From Vulcanimicrobiota bacterium (GTDB lineage: Bacteria > Vulcanimicrobiota > Vulcanimicrobiia > Vulcanimicrobiales > Vulcanimicrobiaceae): DNA of 51,848 nt. The stretch covers positions 6,249-58,096 of the forward strand of contig PLED01000111.1 of assembly GCA_003136355.1 (NCBI GenBank). Direction: 5' to 3'. Every line of letters starts with the position of its first letter. The stretch's first letter is position 1. A program made the position numbers and the translations under genes. The notes under the pieces are model-generated. The model did not search any database, had not been told where the DNA came from, and saw only the letters and a list, made by a program, of their open reading frames with translations. Below, piece after piece: positions 9,621 through 25,981 of the stretch.

Positions 9621-9660
9621 ATGGGAGAGTACGGGTCTGGTGGCCCGCACGGTCTTCAAA
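9621..9660 (+). repeat. attL core: 5' half of tRNA-Sec
   Basis: Forty bases identical to 25886-25925. They cover two bases before the tRNA, the whole acceptor 5' strand, the D-arm and the anticodon arm through CTTCAAA. After 9660 the sequence diverges (ttccct here, accgct in the tRNA). It is therefore a non-functional tRNA fragment left or made by integration. Confidence 0.92.
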
Positions 9661-9944
9661 TTCCCTGCAGCGCATCTCTCGCACAAAAACGCCGACGCGC
9701 GCAGAGACGTGCAATGACGTGAAAACGCTGATCATATAAGGCGTTTCCGCTTCTCGCGGCAATGTGTCGACGCACGCCAAGACGTGCGGTGGGTGTGACC
9801 CAAATGTGACCTGGAATGTCGCGTTCTTTTGGCGTAGGAGCGGGTACGCATCGCTCGACGAGGTGATTATCATTTGCGGGCGTTCGTGCGCTTCACCGCC
9901 TGCTACGCGCCCGCCGCGCCGTGTTCCGTGAGGGAAGGCTCGCA
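9661..9944. other. Left-end non-coding region of the element
   Basis: No convincing gene: the frames that stay open here are low-complexity antisense readings. It holds several GACGTG(C) repeats (near 9705, 9716 and 9780) and the putative integrase arm site at 9793-9814. It is best read as the attachment-site arm. Confidence 0.6.
9793..9814 (+). promoter_or_regulatory. Putative integrase arm site, left
   Basis: Two direct TGTGACC units 11 bases apart, starting GTGTGACCC and ending TGTGACCTGG. The same 22-base arrangement with only two substitutions recurs at 25793-25814 inside the other end. Paired arm-type sites are expected for lambda-like tyrosine recombinases. The role is inferred. Confidence 0.55.
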
Positions 9945-12049: not shown

Positions 12050-13273
12050 ATGCCTGCTCAAACGATCGACGCTCGCCTAACGATCCGCACGAATCCCGAT
12101 GGATCGCCTCGTCTCGTTCACGGCAAGAAGGTTTGGACGGCTCGCGTCAGCCGCGGCTTCGGCGTCGACGGCCAGCGCAAGCAGAAGCGTTTTACGTGCA
12201 TGAGCAACAACGCGAAAGAGGTGCAGCGAGCGTTCGAAGCGTGGGTCGCGAAACTCGACCACGGCGGCGACGTCGAGCCCTCGAAGCTCACCGTCGCGAA
12301 GTATTTTCAGGATTGGGTCAACGCGGCAAGGACGCGCTTCGCCGGCACGTCCTATACCCGCTACGAGAATATTTTCCGGAACCACGTCACCCCGAAACTC
12401 GGCGCGATCGCCATGCAAAAGCTTACCGCGCGACACCTCAACCGCGCGTATTCCGAATGGCGCGAAGCTGGACTTTCCGAACAGACGGTCACGCATCACC
12501 ATCGTTTCATCCATCGCGTGCTCGCACAGGCCGAGCGCGAAGGCGTCGTGCGGCAGAACGTCGCTGCCAAGGCTGACAAACCGAAACCCGCCGAGAGCGA
12601 ACGTCGTGCGCTCACCGTTGACGAACTTGACCGCCTATTTAAGGCGGCGCACGGAACGCGGCTCTATCCGCTCGTTGTCCTAGCTGTTGCGACCGGATGC
12701 CGGCGCGGTGAATTGTTGGGCGCGAAATGGGCCGACCTTGACGTGGCCGAAGGCGTGCTCCACGTGCGCCGATCGCTCGAACAGTACCGCGTCCCGCGCA
12801 CCGTCAATGGCAAGCCGATGCTCGACGCGAAGGGGAAGCAGATCTTCGATACAATCGTTTCCGAGAAGCCGCCCAAGAACGGCAAGGCGCGAGCGGTTGC
12901 ACTCACGCAAGGTGCGCTCAACGCTCTTCGCGCCCACCGGATTGCGACCGCAGAGAAGCAGCTCCCGAGCGCCAATGCGTATATCTTCCCTGACGTCGAC
13001 GGCGTTTCGACCTGGGTCCCGCACAAGGTCACCGACGCGTTTCGCGATCTCGCTCGCAAAACGCAGGTCGCCGGGGTATCGTTCCACAGCCTGCGGCATA
13101 CCGCAGCGACGTTGTTGATTGCGAGCGGGTGCGACGTGCGGACGCTACAAGAGCAGCTCGGACACAGCGTTCCGGCGACGACGCTACGGCTTTACGTGCA
13201 TACGTCGGTCGACAACCAAAAGCGTGCCGTCGCAAAGCTCGACAACATGCTTCCGATCGCTGCGAGGCGATAA
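12050..13273 (+). CDS. int: Tyrosine integrase of the element
   Basis: 407 residues. An arm-binding-like N-terminus (KKVWTARVSRGFG) is followed by a SAM-like core-binding domain (about 75-175) and the catalytic domain with the full set of residues: R in ATGCRRGEL (about 218), H346-x-x-R349 in HSLRHT, H372 in LGHS, and nucleophile Y382 in LRLYVHTS. The enzyme cuts and joins attP with the chromosomal attachment site, here presumably selC. It follows the repressor gene by two bases. It appears intact, so the element may still be able to excise. Confidence 0.96.
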   Translation: MPAQTIDARLTIRTNPDGSPRLVHGKKVWTARVSRGFGVDGQRKQKRFTCMSNNAKEVQRAFEAWVAKLDHGGDVEPSKLTVAKYFQDWVNAARTRFAGTSYTRYENIFRNHVTPKLGAIAMQKLTARHLNRAYSEWREAGLSEQTVTHHHRFIHRVLAQAEREGVVRQNVAAKADKPKPAESERRALTVDELDRLFKAAHGTRLYPLVVLAVATGCRRGELLGAKWADLDVAEGVLHVRRSLEQYRVPRTVNGKPMLDAKGKQIFDTIVSEKPPKNGKARAVALTQGALNALRAHRIATAEKQLPSANAYIFPDVDGVSTWVPHKVTDAFRDLARKTQVAGVSFHSLRHTAATLLIASGCDVRTLQEQLGHSVPATTLRLYVHTSVDNQKRAVAKLDNMLPIAARR

Positions 13274-13296
13274 TAAGTGCTCCGCTGGACCGAGCG

Positions 13297-14475
13297 ATGC
13301 CGCTAAATCTCTTTCACGATCGTCTTGAAGGCGAGACCTACGAAGATGTGTTCACCGTGCTCGCGGCCATCAATGAGGAGACCTCGCGCCTTGAATTCAA
13401 GCGCGAATTAGATTTCGGCGACGTGACCAAGGAGGTCGTCGCCTTTGCCAATGGTGAGGGTGGCATCGTCGTTGTGGGGTTTTGCGACCCAGCTGTTGGC
13501 AAACCGCTGAAACCCTTCAGCAGCGGCCCCGCCACAGCCGATCCCGACCGCTTGCGCGTCGCCAGCAAGGTTCAAGCGAAGATTTACCCGAGCGTAGCGC
13601 TTGAAGTTTTCGGTTACAAGCGCGCCGATGGCGCACACGGCATGCTCGTCATTCGCGTCCCCGCGAGCATTCAAGCACCGCATGAATGGCTCGACCAACG
13701 CGGGCGCTTCCCTGTCCGACGCGGCGCGCAGATCGATTATCTAACGCTGCGCGAAATCGAATACTTGCTGGCGCGCCGCGACAGCCACGGTACTATGGGG
13801 CTCGATCTCGGTCGGTCGACTCCGTGGATGAACTTCGATCGCAGCAGCCAACGACTATTTGTTGGCGCGCGCGTTTCTCCAGAAAGGCCATCATCGGTTC
13901 GGGTATTGACCAAAAGCATTCAGAAGCCCATAGAGGCAGCTATTCGGTCCTTACCCGGCCTCGAAAAGACATCTGTTTTGACGCTGATGAACAGCATTCT
14001 CTTTATGCAAGATCCTGACACTCGGCCCAGTGACGCAGCGCAAATGATGGATTGGGAGATTGAACATCGCTTTTGCAGCGTCAGCGTTGACGGCATGGTT
14101 GAGGTGCGCTTTCCGCAAGACAAAAGCAGACTTGCTTACCAGCTGTACCGAGCGCTGTGCGACAGTTACGCCGCCGCCAATAGCGCTCTCCTCAGCCTAG
14201 GCGGCGGTCCGCGCATTTCGGGGACGTTCGCCTACAAGCTAAACAAAACGCCGGACCTCGGCCCCTTTCCGATCGGCGAGGATGGTGAGCTCCATTTCGA
14301 TGCCGATTTGTCCCGCGACAAACCCAGCGACGTGTTTCCAGAACTTTTGGTTTATGCGATGCGACAGGCCGGCGAGCTCGGGGATTACGACGAGTTCACC
14401 GGCGCTTTGGAGCATTTATGGTTGAGCAAGTATCTTCAGCCGCGTGGTCTCAACGACATGCGCGATTTGTGGTAG
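13297..14475 (+). CDS. AlbA_2 (Schlafen-type) putative DNA/RNA-binding protein
   Basis: 392 residues. The N-terminal AlbA_2 domain is plain: ETSRLEFKRELDFGDVTKEVVAFANGEGGIVVVGFCD (about residues 22-58), then PxGAPHEWLDQRGRFPVRRGAQ-like sequence. The rest (150-392) is not recognised. AlbA_2 proteins bind nucleic acids and are often found in defence islands, sometimes with helicase or HTH partners. ATG at 13297 lies 23 bases after the integrase stop; an upstream in-frame extension overlaps the integrase and is not conserved. Possible defence gene; mechanism unknown. Confidence 0.75.
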   Translation: MPLNLFHDRLEGETYEDVFTVLAAINEETSRLEFKRELDFGDVTKEVVAFANGEGGIVVVGFCDPAVGKPLKPFSSGPATADPDRLRVASKVQAKIYPSVALEVFGYKRADGAHGMLVIRVPASIQAPHEWLDQRGRFPVRRGAQIDYLTLREIEYLLARRDSHGTMGLDLGRSTPWMNFDRSSQRLFVGARVSPERPSSVRVLTKSIQKPIEAAIRSLPGLEKTSVLTLMNSILFMQDPDTRPSDAAQMMDWEIEHRFCSVSVDGMVEVRFPQDKSRLAYQLYRALCDSYAAANSALLSLGGGPRISGTFAYKLNKTPDLGPFPIGEDGELHFDADLSRDKPSDVFPELLVYAMRQAGELGDYDEFTGALEHLWLSKYLQPRGLNDMRDLW

Positions 14476-18197: not shown

Positions 18198-18500
18198 CTA
18201 TGTTTTGCCGGGCCGTGGCGGCCTGTCGGGTGTAGGAACACCCAAAATCTGTGCGGCATTTTGTCTCACCTCGTAGGCAGCATCAGTCAACAGGCGCTTC
18301 GCGAGTCCTTGCCCACGAGCGGGATCAATCTTGTTTAGGCTTATGAGGGCCGCGCTTCGCACGTGATGGGTACGCGACGATACAGCCTTTTCAAGCGCAT
18401 CGGCGGCTGCTAATCCATGTGCGGCTAGTTGTTCAGCGAGAGCGTAACATTTTGGCCACTGCGATTTTATCAGAGCTTCAGCTTCACTAGCGAACTGCAT
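18198..18500 (-). CDS. HEAT-repeat small protein
   Basis: 100 residues made of about two and a half HEAT-type helical pairs: LAAADALEKAVSSRTHHVRSAALISLNKI and RGQGLAKRLLTDAAYEVRQNAAQILG, with the typical V-R-x-x-A. Such modules mediate protein binding. It is downstream of, and overlaps by 14 bases, a small HTH gene on the same strand. ATG at 18500. The role in the element is unknown; it may modulate the neighbouring restriction system. Confidence 0.65.
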   Translation of the reverse strand: MQFASEAEALIKSQWPKCYALAEQLAAHGLAAADALEKAVSSRTHHVRSAALISLNKIDPARGQGLAKRLLTDAAYEVRQNAAQILGVPTPDRPPRPGKT

Positions 18501-19101: not shown

Positions 19102-20547
19102 ATGTTCGAACAAGCCTTCAAGAATATAGATGACGTTCTGCGCAAGGATGCCGGTTGTTCCAGCGAGCTGGATTATATCGAGCAAACGTCTTGGGTGCTG
19201 TTTCTGAAGTACCTGGATGCGCTAGAACAAGACAAATCGATTGAGGCGGCGCTTGAGGGGAAGCCCTATAAGTTCATCCTGGAAAACAAATATCGCTGGG
19301 AAGCTTGGGCCGCGCCGAAAGGCAAGGACGGCAAGATTGACGCCAACCGTGCAATGACTGGCGATGATCTACGTGATTTTGTTAACGCGAAGCTATTTCC
19401 ATATCTCCACGGCTTTAAGACACGCGCTGAAGGCCCGAACACCATCGAATACAAAATCGGTGAGATCTTTGGCGAGCTTCGGAACAAATTCCAAAGTGGA
19501 TATAGCCTTCGCGCTGTCATCGATGAGATGGACGAGCTACGGTTTCGTTCGCAAACAGAAAAGCATGAGTTATCGCACCTTTATGAAGCCAAACTCCGCA
19601 ACATGGGCAATGCAGGCCGGAATGGCGGCGAGTACTATACGCCGCGTCCGCTCATACGCGCAATAATTAATGTGGTCAAGCCTGAGATTGGTCAGCGGAT
19701 TTATGATGGAGCCTTAGGCTCTGGCGGCTTTCTCTGTGAAGCCTTCGATTACTTAAGAAAGAGGCCGGGCCTCACGACCAAAGACGTCAAGAAGATTCAG
19801 AATCATACTTTTTACGGTAAAGAAAAGAAGAGCCTGGCTTACGTGATTGGGATCATGAATATGATTCTTCACGGAATCGAAGCGCCCAACGTTCTTCACA
19901 CGAATACATTGGCCGAAAATATCATGGATATCCAGGAGAAGGACCGCTTTGATATCGTGATGACCAATCCGCCGTTCGGCGGTAAAGAGCATAAAGAGGT
20001 ACAGCAGAATTTCACCATACGTTCAGGCGAAACGGCCTATCTCTTCTTGCAACATTTCATGAAGTTTTTGAAGGCAGGAGGTAGAGCAGGCCTGGTCATC
20101 AAGAATACGTTTCTCTCCAACGGCGATGCTACAAACCTTCGCAAAGAGCTGCTCGAAACATGCAACGTTCACACTATCCTGGATCTTCCGGGCGGTGCAT
20201 TTCAGGGCGCCGGTGTTAAAACGGTAGTACTATTCTTCGAGAAGGGAGCTCCGACTCGAAGGATATGGTTCTATCAACTTAATCCAGGTCGCAGTCTTGG
20301 CAAAACCAATCCGCTCAACGATGCCGACCTTAAAGAGTTTGTCGAACTCCAGAAGAGGTTGGCTGATTCTCCGAATTCTTGGTCCATTGATGTCTCGAAG
20401 CTCAATAAAAGAACGTATGATCTATCCGTAAAGAACCCGAGCAATGGCGGCGATATTCAGCGACTACCGCAAGAGATTGTCGAAGAGATCGAAGCGTTGG
20501 ACAGTCAGAGCGCCCTGGTTCTCGGACGTATTAGAGAACTTTTATGA
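19102..20547 (+). CDS. hsdM: Type I restriction-modification DNA methyltransferase subunit
   Basis: 481 residues. The N-terminal helical HsdM_N domain (about 5-130) is followed by the N6-adenine methyltransferase domain with motif I YDGALGSGGFLCEAF (about 200) and catalytic motif IV NPPFGG (about 290). With HsdS it methylates host DNA; with HsdR it forms the translocating nuclease. The HsdS ATG overlaps its stop by four bases. Base composition here is plainly AT-richer than the core chromosome, a sign of transfer. It looks intact. Confidence 0.97.
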   Translation: MFEQAFKNIDDVLRKDAGCSSELDYIEQTSWVLFLKYLDALEQDKSIEAALEGKPYKFILENKYRWEAWAAPKGKDGKIDANRAMTGDDLRDFVNAKLFPYLHGFKTRAEGPNTIEYKIGEIFGELRNKFQSGYSLRAVIDEMDELRFRSQTEKHELSHLYEAKLRNMGNAGRNGGEYYTPRPLIRAIINVVKPEIGQRIYDGALGSGGFLCEAFDYLRKRPGLTTKDVKKIQNHTFYGKEKKSLAYVIGIMNMILHGIEAPNVLHTNTLAENIMDIQEKDRFDIVMTNPPFGGKEHKEVQQNFTIRSGETAYLFLQHFMKFLKAGGRAGLVIKNTFLSNGDATNLRKELLETCNVHTILDLPGGAFQGAGVKTVVLFFEKGAPTRRIWFYQLNPGRSLGKTNPLNDADLKEFVELQKRLADSPNSWSIDVSKLNKRTYDLSVKNPSNGGDIQRLPQEIVEEIEALDSQSALVLGRIRELL

Positions 20548-21707
20548 GTAAAAGATGGCCGACTCGTCCGTTTGAGAGCGTCGTTGACTCTAGAGGTTCC
20601 GGTAGTACTGGGCTTCCAACAAAATTGTGGAGCGAGTCTGGATCCTATCCGGTCATCGGGCAAGGCTCGGAACAAATTGAAGGCTGGACGGATCGCCAGG
20701 ACCTGCTTGTCACGCCAAATCCGAGTATCGTACTGTACGGCGGCCACACACGTCGCGTTAAACGGGTAACGACACCATTTGTTCCGGGACCTAACGTCAA
20801 ACTCTTACAACCGCACTCGGGTCTTGATTCCGCGTTCTTGACATACTTCTTGATGCACCTGCCAATTGAGAACCGTGGTTACGCGGACCATTTTCCGCTT
20901 GTCCGCAAATCATTGATACCCCTTCCCCCGCTATCGGAACAGCGACGAATAGTCGACATTCTCGACAAAACATTCGAAAACATCGCGATCGCGAGCGCCA
21001 ATACTGAGAAAAACATCGCCAATGCGAAAGAGTTGTTTCAGAGTGAGCTGGACGCCATCTTTGAGCCGCGCGGTGGCGAATGGGAGCTACTAACGGTGAG
21101 GGATTTGGTGAACCGCGATGTCCTTCATAAGCCGTTTGACGGCAATCATGGGGACGCACATCCAACGCGGCGGGATTACGTGAGCGTGGGCGTCCCATTT
21201 CTTATGACTTCGGACCTTCATAACGGTCTTGCTGATACGCGCAACTGTAAGCATATATCTCGGAAAATGGCCGATGCATTGCGCACTGGATTTGCGCGTG
21301 ACAACGATGTGCTTCTTTCACATAAAGGGACCATCGGTAAGGCTGCGGTCCTGCATACCGATCTCGATTATGTAATTTTAACGCCTCAGTTGACCTCGTA
21401 TCGCGTAGTCGACCCCAGACGTCTGTTAAATCGATATTTGTACTACTACTTCCAAAATACAGGCTTTCAGCGGACCATGTCTCTCTTGGCTGGGGCTGGT
21501 TCTACTCGTTCGTACTTAGGAATTACCAAACAGCTGGACTTACCCATAGCGATCCCCCCTCTTCCTGAGCAAAGACAAATAACGGCACGCCTTGATAAAT
21601 TGTCCGAGACAACGCTCATAGCATCTGACCTATACAGAAAAAAGTCTCTTCTCATTATGAATCTCAAACCGTCCGTTCTCCACGCGGCCTTCGACGGTGA
21701 GCTGTAG
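20544..21707 (+). CDS. hsdS: Type I restriction-modification specificity subunit
   Basis: 387 residues with the two-fold repeat of HsdS. Each target-recognition domain is closed by the conserved helix entry PPLSEQRRIVDILDK (about 132) and PPLPEQRQITARLDK (about 342). Each domain reads one half of a bipartite DNA target; the halves here share little sequence, so the target is asymmetric. The start overlaps the hsdM stop and the end shares bases with the hsdR GTG. Confidence 0.95.
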   Translation: MSKRWPTRPFESVVDSRGSGSTGLPTKLWSESGSYPVIGQGSEQIEGWTDRQDLLVTPNPSIVLYGGHTRRVKRVTTPFVPGPNVKLLQPHSGLDSAFLTYFLMHLPIENRGYADHFPLVRKSLIPLPPLSEQRRIVDILDKTFENIAIASANTEKNIANAKELFQSELDAIFEPRGGEWELLTVRDLVNRDVLHKPFDGNHGDAHPTRRDYVSVGVPFLMTSDLHNGLADTRNCKHISRKMADALRTGFARDNDVLLSHKGTIGKAAVLHTDLDYVILTPQLTSYRVVDPRRLLNRYLYYYFQNTGFQRTMSLLAGAGSTRSYLGITKQLDLPIAIPPLPEQRQITARLDKLSETTLIASDLYRKKSLLIMNLKPSVLHAAFDGEL

Positions 21708-24046
21708 TGCATTGGGAGCTCAACGAGGCTGACACTCGTGCGCAATTCGTTGACCCCGCCTTAAAAGCCGCTGGATGGGGTGTTGTTAATGACAGTCGCG
21801 TAATGCGTGAATACCATATCACCAGGGGCCGCCTTCAGGGACACGGCAAGCGAAGTCGAGCCGAAATCGGCGATTATATTCTAATCTATCGCAACCACAT
21901 GTTAGGCGTTGTGGAAGCGAAGCGAGTTGGCCTCGTCTATACCGAAGGTCTGGCTCAAGCTAAAACATATTCACAGATGCTCGATGCACGGTTCGCATTC
22001 GCGACCAACGGAACGCGTATCTACCAAGTTGATATGCTCACGGGTCAGGAAGGCGACGTGGAAGCCTATCCCACTCCCGACCAGCTCTGGAACGTCGTCT
22101 TCGCCGAGCAGAATATTTGGCGCGATAGATTTGCAAGTGTTCCCTTTGAGGATAGGGGAGGCACATGGGGCTCGCGCTATTACCAGGACATTGCTGTAAA
22201 TAATGTTCTAGAGGCAATTGCTAAGGGCCAGAAGCGCATACTGCTGACGTTAGCAACCGGTACTGGGAAGACCATGATTGCCTTCCAAATTGCCTGGAAG
22301 TTATTCCAGAGCAGATGGACACTTCAGGGGAACCAAGAGCGTAGGCCCCGTGTGCTCTTTCTCGCGGACAGAAACTTTCTCGCAAATCAAGCCTTCAACG
22401 ACTTCTCTGCCTTCGCCGAAGATGCACTGGTTCGTATAAGTCCGGATGAAATTCGCAAAACCGCTAAGGTTCCGAAGAACGGCAACATCTTCTTCACTAT
22501 TTTTCAGACATTCATGACGAGCCCAGCCGAGGGAGAAAATACCCACTTCACTTTTCATGGCTACCCTCCTGACTACTTTGACTTTATCGTCATAGACGAG
22601 TGTCATCGCGGCGGCGCAAACGATGAGGGTACGTGGCGCGCGATCCTAGAATATTTTTCACCTGCCGTCCAGCTTGGTCTTACTGCTACACCCAAGCGTA
22701 AAGACAATGTTGACACCTATGCATACTTTGGCGAACCCGTTTATACTTATTCCCTTAAGCAAGGCATAAACGATGGGTTTTTGACCCCATTCAAGGTCCG
22801 GCAAATCTCAAGCACCCTGGATGAGTACGTCTATACACCAGATGATAACGTTGTGGAAGGCGACGTTGAATTGGGAAGGCGCTACACCGAATCAGACTTC
22901 AATAAAGTCATCGAGATTAGGGAGCGAGAGGCGTTCCGAGTAAAACAAATCATGGACATGATAGATCAACGGGAGAAAACGCTAGTTTTTTGTGCGACAC
23001 AGGACCACGCTTTAGCCGTTCGCGATCTGATTAACCAAGATAAGACCAGCGCAGACCCAAACTACTGCGTTCGTGTTACCGCGAATGATGGTGCTCTGGG
23101 TGAGCAATTTCTACGCGACTTTCAAGACAACGAAAAGACTATCCCGACTATACTTACAACATCGCAGAAGCTTTCGACCGGCGTTAATGCAAGAAACGTT
23201 CGGAACATCGTCCTCATGCGCCCCATTAATTCGATGATTGAATTTAAGCAAATTATCGGGCGCGGCACGAGGCTCTACGAAGGCAAAGACTATTTCACAA
23301 TTTACGACTTCGTAAAAGCGCACGAGCATTTTAGCGACCCCACCTGGGATGGCGAACCTGAGGACGAAACAGTGGACCGAAAACCTAAAGGGCCACGCAA
23401 AGAGCGGCCTCCAAAGCCTCGCCCACACGAGCCCACGGAAAAGGTGAGAATCGTACTAAGCGATGGCAAGGTCCGGCAAATTCAGAGCATGGTTCAAACC
23501 AGTTTTTGGAGCGCGGATGGTCGGCCAATGTCTGCCCAGCAGTTCCTTGAGAGATTATACGGGGATCTGCCCGAGTTTTTTAAAAGCGAAAAAGAGCTGC
23601 GCCAAATCTGGAGTGTCCCGTCGACCCGAAAAGCTCTTGTGGAACGACTGGCGGAGAAAGGATTTGGCAAAGAGCAGCTGGCTGAAATGCAACGCATTAT
23701 TGACGCCGATAAGAGCGATATTTTCGATGTGCTTGGCTATGTTGCTTTTGCGCTGCCGACTGAAACTCGCCAGGATAGAGCTGGTAAAGCCAAACGCGAT
23801 ATTGCCGACAACTTCAATGGAAAGCAGCTGGCCTTTATTGATTTTGTTTTGGGTCAGTACGTTCGCGAGGGAGAAGAGGAACTGGATCCGGTTAAGCTGT
23901 CTCCCCTCTTAAAGCTCAAATACAATGCGATTTCAGATGCCACGCGCGACCTTGGAGATCCGGCATCAATCCGAAACATGTTCATAGATTTCCAAAAATA
24001 TCTGTATCAGTCGCAACCTCGGCTTAGCGGCCAAATGCAGCCTTGA
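21707..24046 (+). CDS. hsdR: Type I restriction enzyme motor/nuclease subunit
   Basis: 779 residues, EcoEI-like. N-terminal nuclease with IGDYILIYRNHMLGVVEAKR (D ... E-x-K, about 40-65), then SF2 helicase: Walker A LATGTGKTM (about 180), DECHR box (about 298), TATPKRKD, and motif VI IIGRGTRLY (about 520). The charged linker PKGPRKERPPKPRP precedes the C-terminal HsdM/S-docking helical domain. GTG start in TAGTG, overlapping the hsdS stop, gives translational coupling. No inactivating change seen. Confidence 0.96.
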   Translation: MHWELNEADTRAQFVDPALKAAGWGVVNDSRVMREYHITRGRLQGHGKRSRAEIGDYILIYRNHMLGVVEAKRVGLVYTEGLAQAKTYSQMLDARFAFATNGTRIYQVDMLTGQEGDVEAYPTPDQLWNVVFAEQNIWRDRFASVPFEDRGGTWGSRYYQDIAVNNVLEAIAKGQKRILLTLATGTGKTMIAFQIAWKLFQSRWTLQGNQERRPRVLFLADRNFLANQAFNDFSAFAEDALVRISPDEIRKTAKVPKNGNIFFTIFQTFMTSPAEGENTHFTFHGYPPDYFDFIVIDECHRGGANDEGTWRAILEYFSPAVQLGLTATPKRKDNVDTYAYFGEPVYTYSLKQGINDGFLTPFKVRQISSTLDEYVYTPDDNVVEGDVELGRRYTESDFNKVIEIREREAFRVKQIMDMIDQREKTLVFCATQDHALAVRDLINQDKTSADPNYCVRVTANDGALGEQFLRDFQDNEKTIPTILTTSQKLSTGVNARNVRNIVLMRPINSMIEFKQIIGRGTRLYEGKDYFTIYDFVKAHEHFSDPTWDGEPEDETVDRKPKGPRKERPPKPRPHEPTEKVRIVLSDGKVRQIQSMVQTSFWSADGRPMSAQQFLERLYGDLPEFFKSEKELRQIWSVPSTRKALVERLAEKGFGKEQLAEMQRIIDADKSDIFDVLGYVAFALPTETRQDRAGKAKRDIADNFNGKQLAFIDFVLGQYVREGEEELDPVKLSPLLKLKYNAISDATRDLGDPASIRNMFIDFQKYLYQSQPRLSGQMQP

Positions 24047-24107
24047 TTAGTCTCGTCGTGCCTCGACAGGAGGTCCCAAACGGGGGTGGTCGTAACCGGG
24101 TTTGCGT

Positions 24108-24527
24108 ATGGCGGATGGCCGCGTGACAACAGCCGCAGGCGAACTTCAGGCTATTCTTTTCGCTTTGTTGGGCGTCGTCAACAGGGACACGGGCAACGTG
24201 TCGTTGACCGAAATTTTCAGTGGCCTACAGACTGCGGGGTTCCCTTTTTCCCCGCAGTTTTTCGTATTGATGAAGTTTAAGAATCCTAAGTCTGAGTCGT
24301 TTGAGACCCACCTTCAGATCGATGATCCCAACGGCACAGTGATATGGAGTCCCCCTGACTCGACCTTGAATATTAGGCTTGATCCTCCGACCTTTGCGAT
24401 GCTGACCTTTGTGCAAGCAACTTTCAAGGCCCCCGGCCCGTATACCCTAAGGGCCTCCATCGATGGGGTGGAGGTGGCAAGTGAGGAATTTACGGTTCTT
24501 GAGGTAAAGACGGCAGTAGCAAAATGA
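24108..24527 (+). CDS. DUF6941-like beta-sandwich protein
   Basis: 139 residues. The pattern 'ILFALLGVVNRDTGNVSLTEIFSG ... FFVLMKFKNP ... HLQIDDPNGTVIW ... PGPYTLRASIDGVEVASEEFTV' has the strand order and the closing PGxYxxxxxxDG of DUF6941-type hypothetical proteins. ATG at 24108 preferred to the TTG two codons earlier. It is 61 bases after hsdR on the same strand and overlaps the next gene by four bases. Function unknown; the position suggests cargo travelling with the restriction system. Confidence 0.55.
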   Translation: MADGRVTTAAGELQAILFALLGVVNRDTGNVSLTEIFSGLQTAGFPFSPQFFVLMKFKNPKSESFETHLQIDDPNGTVIWSPPDSTLNIRLDPPTFAMLTFVQATFKAPGPYTLRASIDGVEVASEEFTVLEVKTAVAK

Positions 24528-24778
24528 CAATGGTAACAAGCGCCCCACCCCCTGCGTGCCTGGGAGCATCCTTGGCGCTCGTTTCGTCTCAGGCGCAAAC
24601 CTTCGTTGCCGTGGACGGCGCCCTAATTCCCGTCGAGGGTGCTAACGGGATGGTTTTTTCTGGACTTTTTGGATCGCCACGTTCGCTTGCCGTGAGCTTC
24701 TTCGAGCAACCTGGAATCATCGCGGATGATGAAGCGGACTACCTGACTTTTATCACGCCAGTTCCGCGCAATTTCTGA
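24524..24778 (+). CDS. Small unknown protein in the hsd-linked cassette
   Basis: 84 residues, start overlapping the previous stop (ATGA). No family recognised. It has a hydrophobic first third (ACLGASLALVSSQAQTFVAV) and an acidic stretch IIADDEADYLTF. Gene status rests on the overlap, the strand and the coding-like composition. Confidence 0.5.
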   Translation: MTMVTSAPPPACLGASLALVSSQAQTFVAVDGALIPVEGANGMVFSGLFGSPRSLAVSFFEQPGIIADDEADYLTFITPVPRNF

Positions 24779-24794
24779 TCAGCCGTAACAGGGT

Positions 24795-25436
24795 GTGCCG
24801 CCGCCAAAAATAAGGCACCGTTTAGACCACACGCACTTCACACCCGCCAATGACGAGATACTAGCTCAGGGCGACGTACTATGTGATTTGCCGATGGCCA
24901 TGCTTTCCATCGAGTTGGAGTGGCTCGAAGATGCCGAAGGCGGCTACCGACGCGCTCTTAATCCACCTAAAAACGGCCAAGGTTTGCTGTTAGCTGAAGG
25001 CCGCGTACTGCCAGCCATGCTATTGTCATTCACCTGTGATATATGCAAAGTGCTGAAGAGCTTCATCGACAATGGCGGACAGGACGCTACGAGCTTTGTT
25101 GTGCATGCAGCTCCAATACTGTCTCTACCAGACGACAAGAACGCGGCAGGTGTCATCCGAGCTGGTAAGCAGTATAACGGTCTGTATTTGCCAGCGACGG
25201 GCGGCCTTCCCGACAGTTATGTCGATTTCTCTCTGTATCAACCCCTGTCAATCCGAACGGTCCTAAAGCATACGCTTCAACGCATCACCGGCCTAACTGA
25301 ACCGGGGCGGATTTATTTGGCCGCGACGTATGCACAATATCTCGGGGATGATAGTAGGAGACAGGCGACTAGCTCGGTCCCGACTGACCTAGAGCGAACA
25401 TACCTAAATCAAGCAATTACCGTGGCCCGAATTTGA
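24795..25436 (+). CDS. Unknown protein with 'TCDI' signature
   Basis: 213 residues, GTG start 16 bases after the previous stop. The N-terminus has QGDVLCDLP, then LLSFTCDICKVLK (about 76-88), AAPILSLPD (about 104) and a helical C-terminus. The order G-D-(I/V), then S-x-T-C-D-I-x-K, then A-P-I is one I associate with a widespread unnamed family of hypothetical proteins near defence and mobile genes. The paired cysteines could be catalytic or metal-binding. Last gene of the element before the right attachment region. Confidence 0.55.
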   Translation: MPPPKIRHRLDHTHFTPANDEILAQGDVLCDLPMAMLSIELEWLEDAEGGYRRALNPPKNGQGLLLAEGRVLPAMLLSFTCDICKVLKSFIDNGGQDATSFVVHAAPILSLPDDKNAAGVIRAGKQYNGLYLPATGGLPDSYVDFSLYQPLSIRTVLKHTLQRITGLTEPGRIYLAATYAQYLGDDSRRQATSSVPTDLERTYLNQAITVARI

Positions 25437-25564: not shown

Positions 25565-25792
25565 CCCGACACCTAACGCTACTCGTCGGTATCGCCGGAC
25601 TCAGATTCGATTCCCGTTGGCGACAAACGCACTAGGCCTTTCAGGCAAGTACCGAAAACCTCGCGCGCGCGGCCTCCCATTACGGTTGCCAAACGGTTGC
25701 CGTCGCTTCACTCGGCGAGATCGGTTCGGCGCTCTTCTTTGCCACGTGGGAGCGCCGATGGTGGCGGCGAAAACGGCCCGCGCGGTCGTGAG

Positions 25793-25885: not shown

Positions 25886-25925
25886 ATGGGAGAGTACGGG
25901 TCTGGTGGCCCGCACGGTCTTCAAA
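25886..25925 (+). repeat. attR core within tRNA-Sec
   Basis: Identical over 40 bases to 9621-9660. It ends exactly at the 3' end of the anticodon loop, so the crossover lies somewhere in the 5' half of the tRNA. Confidence 0.92.
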
Positions 25926-25981
25926 ACCGCTGAGGCCGGTGAAAGCCGGCTGGTAGGTTCGATTCCTACACTTTCCCGCCA
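25888..25981 (+). tRNA. selC: tRNA-Sec (anticodon TCA)
   Basis: 94 bases with all hallmarks of bacterial selenocysteine tRNA. The 8-base acceptor stem is GGGAGAGT/ACTTTCCC, and the 6-base D stem with 4-base loop is CGGGTC-TGGT-GGCCCG. The anticodon loop CTTCAAA has TCA at 25921-25923; its stem has four clear pairs plus an A/C position. The long variable arm is GCCGG-tgaaag-CCGGC, the T arm is GTAGG-TTCGATT-CCTAC (8+5 domain), the discriminator is G and CCA is encoded. It inserts selenocysteine at UGA with SelB. Its 5' half coincides with the attachment core. Confidence 0.96.

Follow-up and report, generated by a model that had tools for sequence, protein, structure and literature searches.

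A three-gene cassette behind a type I restriction operon as a possible divergent relative of mobile TIGR04255 cassettes

Three short genes that follow hsdR in a Vulcanimicrobiota genome can tentatively be placed as a divergent, restriction-modification (RM)-linked variant of a mobile three-gene cassette, with a DUF6941 protein in the first position usually held by TIGR04255. They lie in a window of 51,848 nucleotides, the whole stretch of DNA that was analysed. Direct support comes from the gene order, from the similarity of the third protein (p213) to a family named here QGD...TCD, and from TIGR04255 cassettes that recur on mobile DNA and beside hsd genes. A defence function of the trio, with p213 as its effector, is putative.

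A preliminary description of the window placed three ORFs behind hsdR, and all are present on its strand, with the spacings then given: 61 bases between hsdR and gene 1, a 4-base overlap of gene 1 with gene 2 (p84), and 16 bases between p84 and p213 (Table 1). Gene 1 starts at the ATG at 24108, with an alternative in-frame TTG at 24102. Its proposed likeness to DUF6941 is borne out by a Pfam score of 41.9 bits against a gathering cut-off of 27, and the motifs reported for the 213-residue protein (QGDVL, SFTCDICK and APIL) all occur in it. No significant match was found for p84 or p213 in Pfam, PADLOC, NCBIfam or PHROGs. Searches with Pfam, PADLOC and NCBIfam found no Hsd domain in the trio, and no protein of the three could be assigned to an Hsd subunit or to a family in PADLOC; the description of a cassette of unknown type behind hsdMSR, without a known Hsd subunit, therefore holds. 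Translation of p84 is presumed from its reading frame and spacing, and that of p213 from reading frame, spacing and remote homology. The predicted structures of the DUF6941 protein (pLDDT 51, strand-rich) and p213 (pLDDT 39) are of too poor quality for fold searching, and the beta-sandwich fold proposed earlier for gene 1 is putative. In the gap that separates hsdR from gene 1, no consensus promoter was detected on the coding strand, which argues weakly for read-through.

Table 1. Features of the island and its attachment site, in window coordinates
Feature	Position	Strand	Evidence
Left end repeat D1, 5′ half of tRNA-Sec	9621..9667	+	Direct repeat
Putative tyrosine-recombinase-like integrase gene, so named from its sequence	12050..13273	+	ORF
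HEAT-repeat gene	18198..18500	-	Pfam HEAT_2; relative follows the TIGR04255-TCD cassette in G117
hsdM	19102..20547	+	Pfam N6_Mtase and HsdM_N
hsdS	20544..21707	+	Pfam Methylase_S
hsdR, EcoAI/FtnUII type	21707..24046	+	NCBIfam NF046051, E 5e-246
Gene 1, divergent DUF6941 protein, first cassette position	24108..24527	+	Pfam PF22091, E 1.6e-10
Gene 2 (p84), 84-aa orphan protein, middle position	24524..24778	+	ORF, 4-bp overlap with gene 1
Gene 3 (p213), 213 aa, GTG start, probable remote QGD...TCD family member, presumed effector	24795..25436	+	hhalign, E 2e-5
Right end repeat D1, inside intact tRNA-Sec gene	25886..25932	+	Direct repeat
Intact tRNA-Sec gene	25888..25981	+	ARAGORN, Rfam RF01852

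The trio forms the last genes of an island on whose right side the tRNA-Sec gene is left intact. The repeats at its two ends (D1, 47 nt, 94% identical) correspond to the 5′ half of tRNA-Sec and delimit an integrated element of 16.3 kb, in agreement with the earlier claim that the trio ends just before an attachment region. Directly behind the island's integrase gene lies a Schlafen/AlbA_2-type gene (13129-14475; Pfam 2.5e-10). Insertion at the 5′ half of tRNA-Sec recurs in the host's genus. In the related genomes G100, G101 and G105 an extra copy of this half lies about 1.2-1.7 kb before tRNA-Sec; in G102 and G103 no such extra copy was detected. Inserts of 1.2-1.7 kb bounded by the island's repeat are seen at L198, L199 and L200, in three relatives. 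Since the inserts are bounded by this repeat, each supplies the 5′ half of the working tRNA gene, and presumably its promoter as well. A segment at 25604-25624, GATTCGATTCCCGTTGGCGAC, resembles a tRNA T-arm and 3′ end; it occurs once in the window, has no Rfam match and may be what is left of a second attachment site.

The QGD...TCD family, a name coined here, was reached through a probe sequence composed to a motif pattern, which is itself not evidence. The probe retrieved a real plasmid protein of Kocuria (E 8e-4), which as a query led to relatives on plasmids of Rhizobium, Sphingomonas, Sinorhizobium, Chroococcidiopsis, Paenarthrobacter and Streptomyces. QG and Q(T/D)CD motifs are common to these relatives. 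A profile of eleven members, from which p213 was left out, aligns to p213 over 144 columns with an hhalign score of 37.3; among 1,300 control ORFs the highest score is 25.0. In hmmsearch the same profile ranks p213 first among ORFs (E 0.011; next 0.49), and p213 scores 30.7-44.3 whichever member is dropped. One member, from Phocaeicola, came from a second composed probe (E 0.8) and scores 23.2 when left out of the profile; it was accepted for its cassette context, which is its only confirmation.

Most of the signal between p213 and the TCD profile sits in the two motifs. Masking both lowers the score to 18.4, inside the chance range, and shuffles of p213 that keep the motifs score up to 34.1, with none of 300 reaching 37.3. 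The match is also partly selected, as the family was found through motifs that the probe carried. Membership of p213 in the family is likely, though not proven. The TCD profile found nothing significant among PDB sequences; the domain may resemble a PemK/MazF-like SH3 barrel.

In annotated contexts the TCD gene is mostly the third of a set, after TIGR04255 and a middle gene, and several middle genes bear a helix-turn-helix (HTH). Plasmids with this order come from Kocuria, Rhizobium, Sphingomonas, Sinorhizobium, Chroococcidiopsis, Paenarthrobacter, Klebsiella and Phocaeicola, which span four phyla; in Streptomyces and one Paenarthrobacter record an HTH gene precedes the TCD gene and no TIGR04255 is annotated. 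The Phocaeicola cassette, with overlapping genes for TIGR04255 (1.5e-44), a 115-aa protein and a 209-aa TCD protein, is the closest to the window trio in the sizes of genes 2 and 3. The Kocuria, Chroococcidiopsis and Phocaeicola copies have an integrase gene nearby, which for Phocaeicola was read from the ORF. The Klebsiella cassette has a tape-measure gene nearby and also occurs in a viral-contig collection; E. coli genomes gave no near match to it. TIGR04255, HTH and TCD genes form an isolated three-gene insert in the phage-like Klebsiella plasmid, and an IMG/VR contig carries an identical TCD gene (L220, 4989-7253, and L221). Within the host's own family, genome G117 encodes a TIGR04255-TCD cassette followed by a HEAT gene whose product is 58% identical over 91 aa to that of the island's HEAT gene.

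Third genes in other TIGR04255 sets vary and include an HNH nuclease, a GNAT enzyme and others. A further third-gene family, also unnamed, stands behind TIGR04255 and a middle gene in L234 (5532-6203), L235 (3992-4639) and L219 (5473-6129); its members, grouped by eye, have about 215-223 aa, a common GLTCA motif and no Pfam match. Among the links of these cassettes to mobile or defence DNA are also multiubiquitin, ThiF and DUF6527 genes, which stand beside a TIGR04255 gene in Rhizobium sp. CB3060. The open-access literature searched yielded no paper containing 'TIGR04255' or 'DUF6941'.

In the preliminary description, failure of the three genes to co-occur elsewhere, or conservation of only one, would speak against the proposal. 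The strict trio was not seen in 149 genomes of the phylum, some 1,300 others, 86 hsdR loci, plasmids, phages or viral contigs. Direct sequence search found no relatives of p213 in genome contigs, viral contigs, plasmids, phages, the 149 phylum genomes, or 398, 327, 294 and 289 genomes of other phyla, and none of p84 in viral contigs, plasmids or the phylum genomes. Weak matches to either protein that were opened for inspection were judged to be chance, as was a DUF6941 candidate in L062. DUF6941 itself occurs in 60 of the 149 phylum genomes and in 11 of 50 outside the phylum, and trio-like partner genes are absent from the neighbourhoods examined, which cover roughly one third to one half of the matches. 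Nor does the trio appear, within the stretch examined per locus, at the best 80 hsdR loci (hsdR 63-69% identical to that of the island) or at six more in the phylum, and the DUF6941 and hsdR neighbourhoods examined hold no second set of DUF6941, small and TCD genes. With no recurrence, and with DUF6941 alone conserved at ordinary sensitivity, the strict trio cannot be called a conserved unit in the sense of the preliminary description. In L085 (10408-13288), from a Deltaproteobacteria MAG, several unknown ORFs lie directly behind hsdR, the last with HNH-like cysteines. Here another group of accessory genes occupies the post-hsdR slot. An ORF of L085 was rejected as a TCD relative as the motifs are absent.

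TIGR04255 has its own links to type I restriction: of the 80 hsdR loci ranked best, 2 hold such a gene. Pseudomonas benzenivorans, which ranks first among the hsdR relatives, has a run of three genes with TIGR04255 that begins 134 bp behind hsdR (counted to the longest ORF), and in G135 a TIGR04255 gene directly precedes hsdM-hsdS. The earlier proposal of a separate defence unit or an RM accessory thus survives as the best idea in modified form, through the p213-TCD link and the TIGR04255 cassettes beside type I hsd genes; the strict trio as a recurrent entity does not.

The three genes may instead be unrelated passengers of the island that chance to sit behind hsdR, with the likeness of p213 to the TCD family due to convergence or chance. 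The uniqueness of the strict trio in all searches, the loss of the p213 match on motif masking and the variety of other genes in the post-hsdR slot, as in L085, are what such passengers would leave. However, the 4-bp overlap and 16-bp gap on one strand, a profile match above all controls, the HEAT neighbour common to the island and the G117 cassette, and a TIGR04255 cassette in the same post-hsdR slot elsewhere make this explanation unlikely.

A role of the trio as an accessory to HsdMSR, such as that of a restriction regulator, with no effector of its own, would fit its position on the same strand 61 bp behind hsdR with no consensus promoter found between, and the TIGR04255 genes that abut hsd genes at two other loci. 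It appears improbable, however, given that the 80 loci with similar hsdR genes lack the trio, so that the restriction enzyme does not need it, and that TCD cassettes also occur on plasmids without hsd genes. A small gene directly upstream of p213 could point to an ordinary antitoxin-toxin pair of p84 and p213, with the DUF6941 gene separate. The sibling tRNA-Sec insert L198 has an apparent toxin-antitoxin pair (read unaided), and a weak HicA-like ORF lies downstream of one TIGR04255 gene. Yet p84 is unlike any antitoxin family in Pfam, PADLOC, NCBIfam or PHROGs, gene 1 overlaps gene 2 and the related cassettes have three genes, which leaves such a pair with little probability.

If the trio is a cassette variant, p213 is most likely its effector, a placement based on the HNH nuclease, GNAT enzyme or unrelated genes that hold the third position in other cassettes. 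The likeliest mechanism, by analogy with PrrC, is a guarded effector, in which each protein's role is putative. The cassette would be read from the hsd operon by co-transcription, and DUF6941 and p84 might keep p213 inactive; the trio may also contact HsdMSR. Phage interference with the cell or with HsdMSR would then free p213, and the freed protein would halt growth.

A broader and rather doubtful proposal is that the trio and the TIGR04255 cassettes constitute an undescribed modular anti-phage system, with an interchangeable first protein (TIGR04255 or DUF6941), an equally interchangeable effector (TCD, HNH, GNAT or others), and an RM-linked branch that guards type I restriction. If true, this would be a type of mobile cassette that has no model in PADLOC-DB 2023 and no paper in the open literature searched. 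With the host's phylum included, at least five phyla would have it; its parts would be exchangeable, and one of its branches would be linked to type I restriction. It would then be possible to test concretely whether guarded killing modules other than PrrC and RloC are common in RM operons.

Among known families, gene 1 belongs with DUF6941 (PF22091), whose cut-off it passes. It is divergent and lies in an island, unlike the other DUF6941 members of the phylum, which occupy varied chromosomal contexts without such partners. As a set, the trio resembles the TIGR04255 cassettes (NCBIfam sporadTIGR04255) in having three short genes on one strand of mobile DNA that overlap or almost do so, in its probable QGD...TCD third gene, and in its place beside type I hsd genes, which some TIGR04255 copies also adjoin. 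It differs in its first gene, which is DUF6941 and not TIGR04255: gene 1 has no NCBIfam match, the DUF6941 and TIGR04255 profiles show no similarity, and TIGR04255 is absent from the window's genome. Similarly, p84 resembles none of the HTH-bearing middle genes (E values of 0.06 or higher with the middle-gene profile and with individual middle genes). The trio thus lacks TIGR04255, a defining feature of that cassette, and counts as a variant solely through its gene positions, its third gene and its neighbourhood. PrrC is an anticodon nuclease linked to EcoprrI. It is held silent by its type I enzyme, and a phage anti-restriction factor activates it (PMC2610378). Unlike PrrC and RloC, the trio contains no PrrC- or RloC-like sequence (Pfam, PADLOC, NCBIfam and PHROGs), and its guarding by HsdMSR is putative. 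What the trio may share with them is only a logic, that of an effector encoded together with a type I system (PMC2610378).
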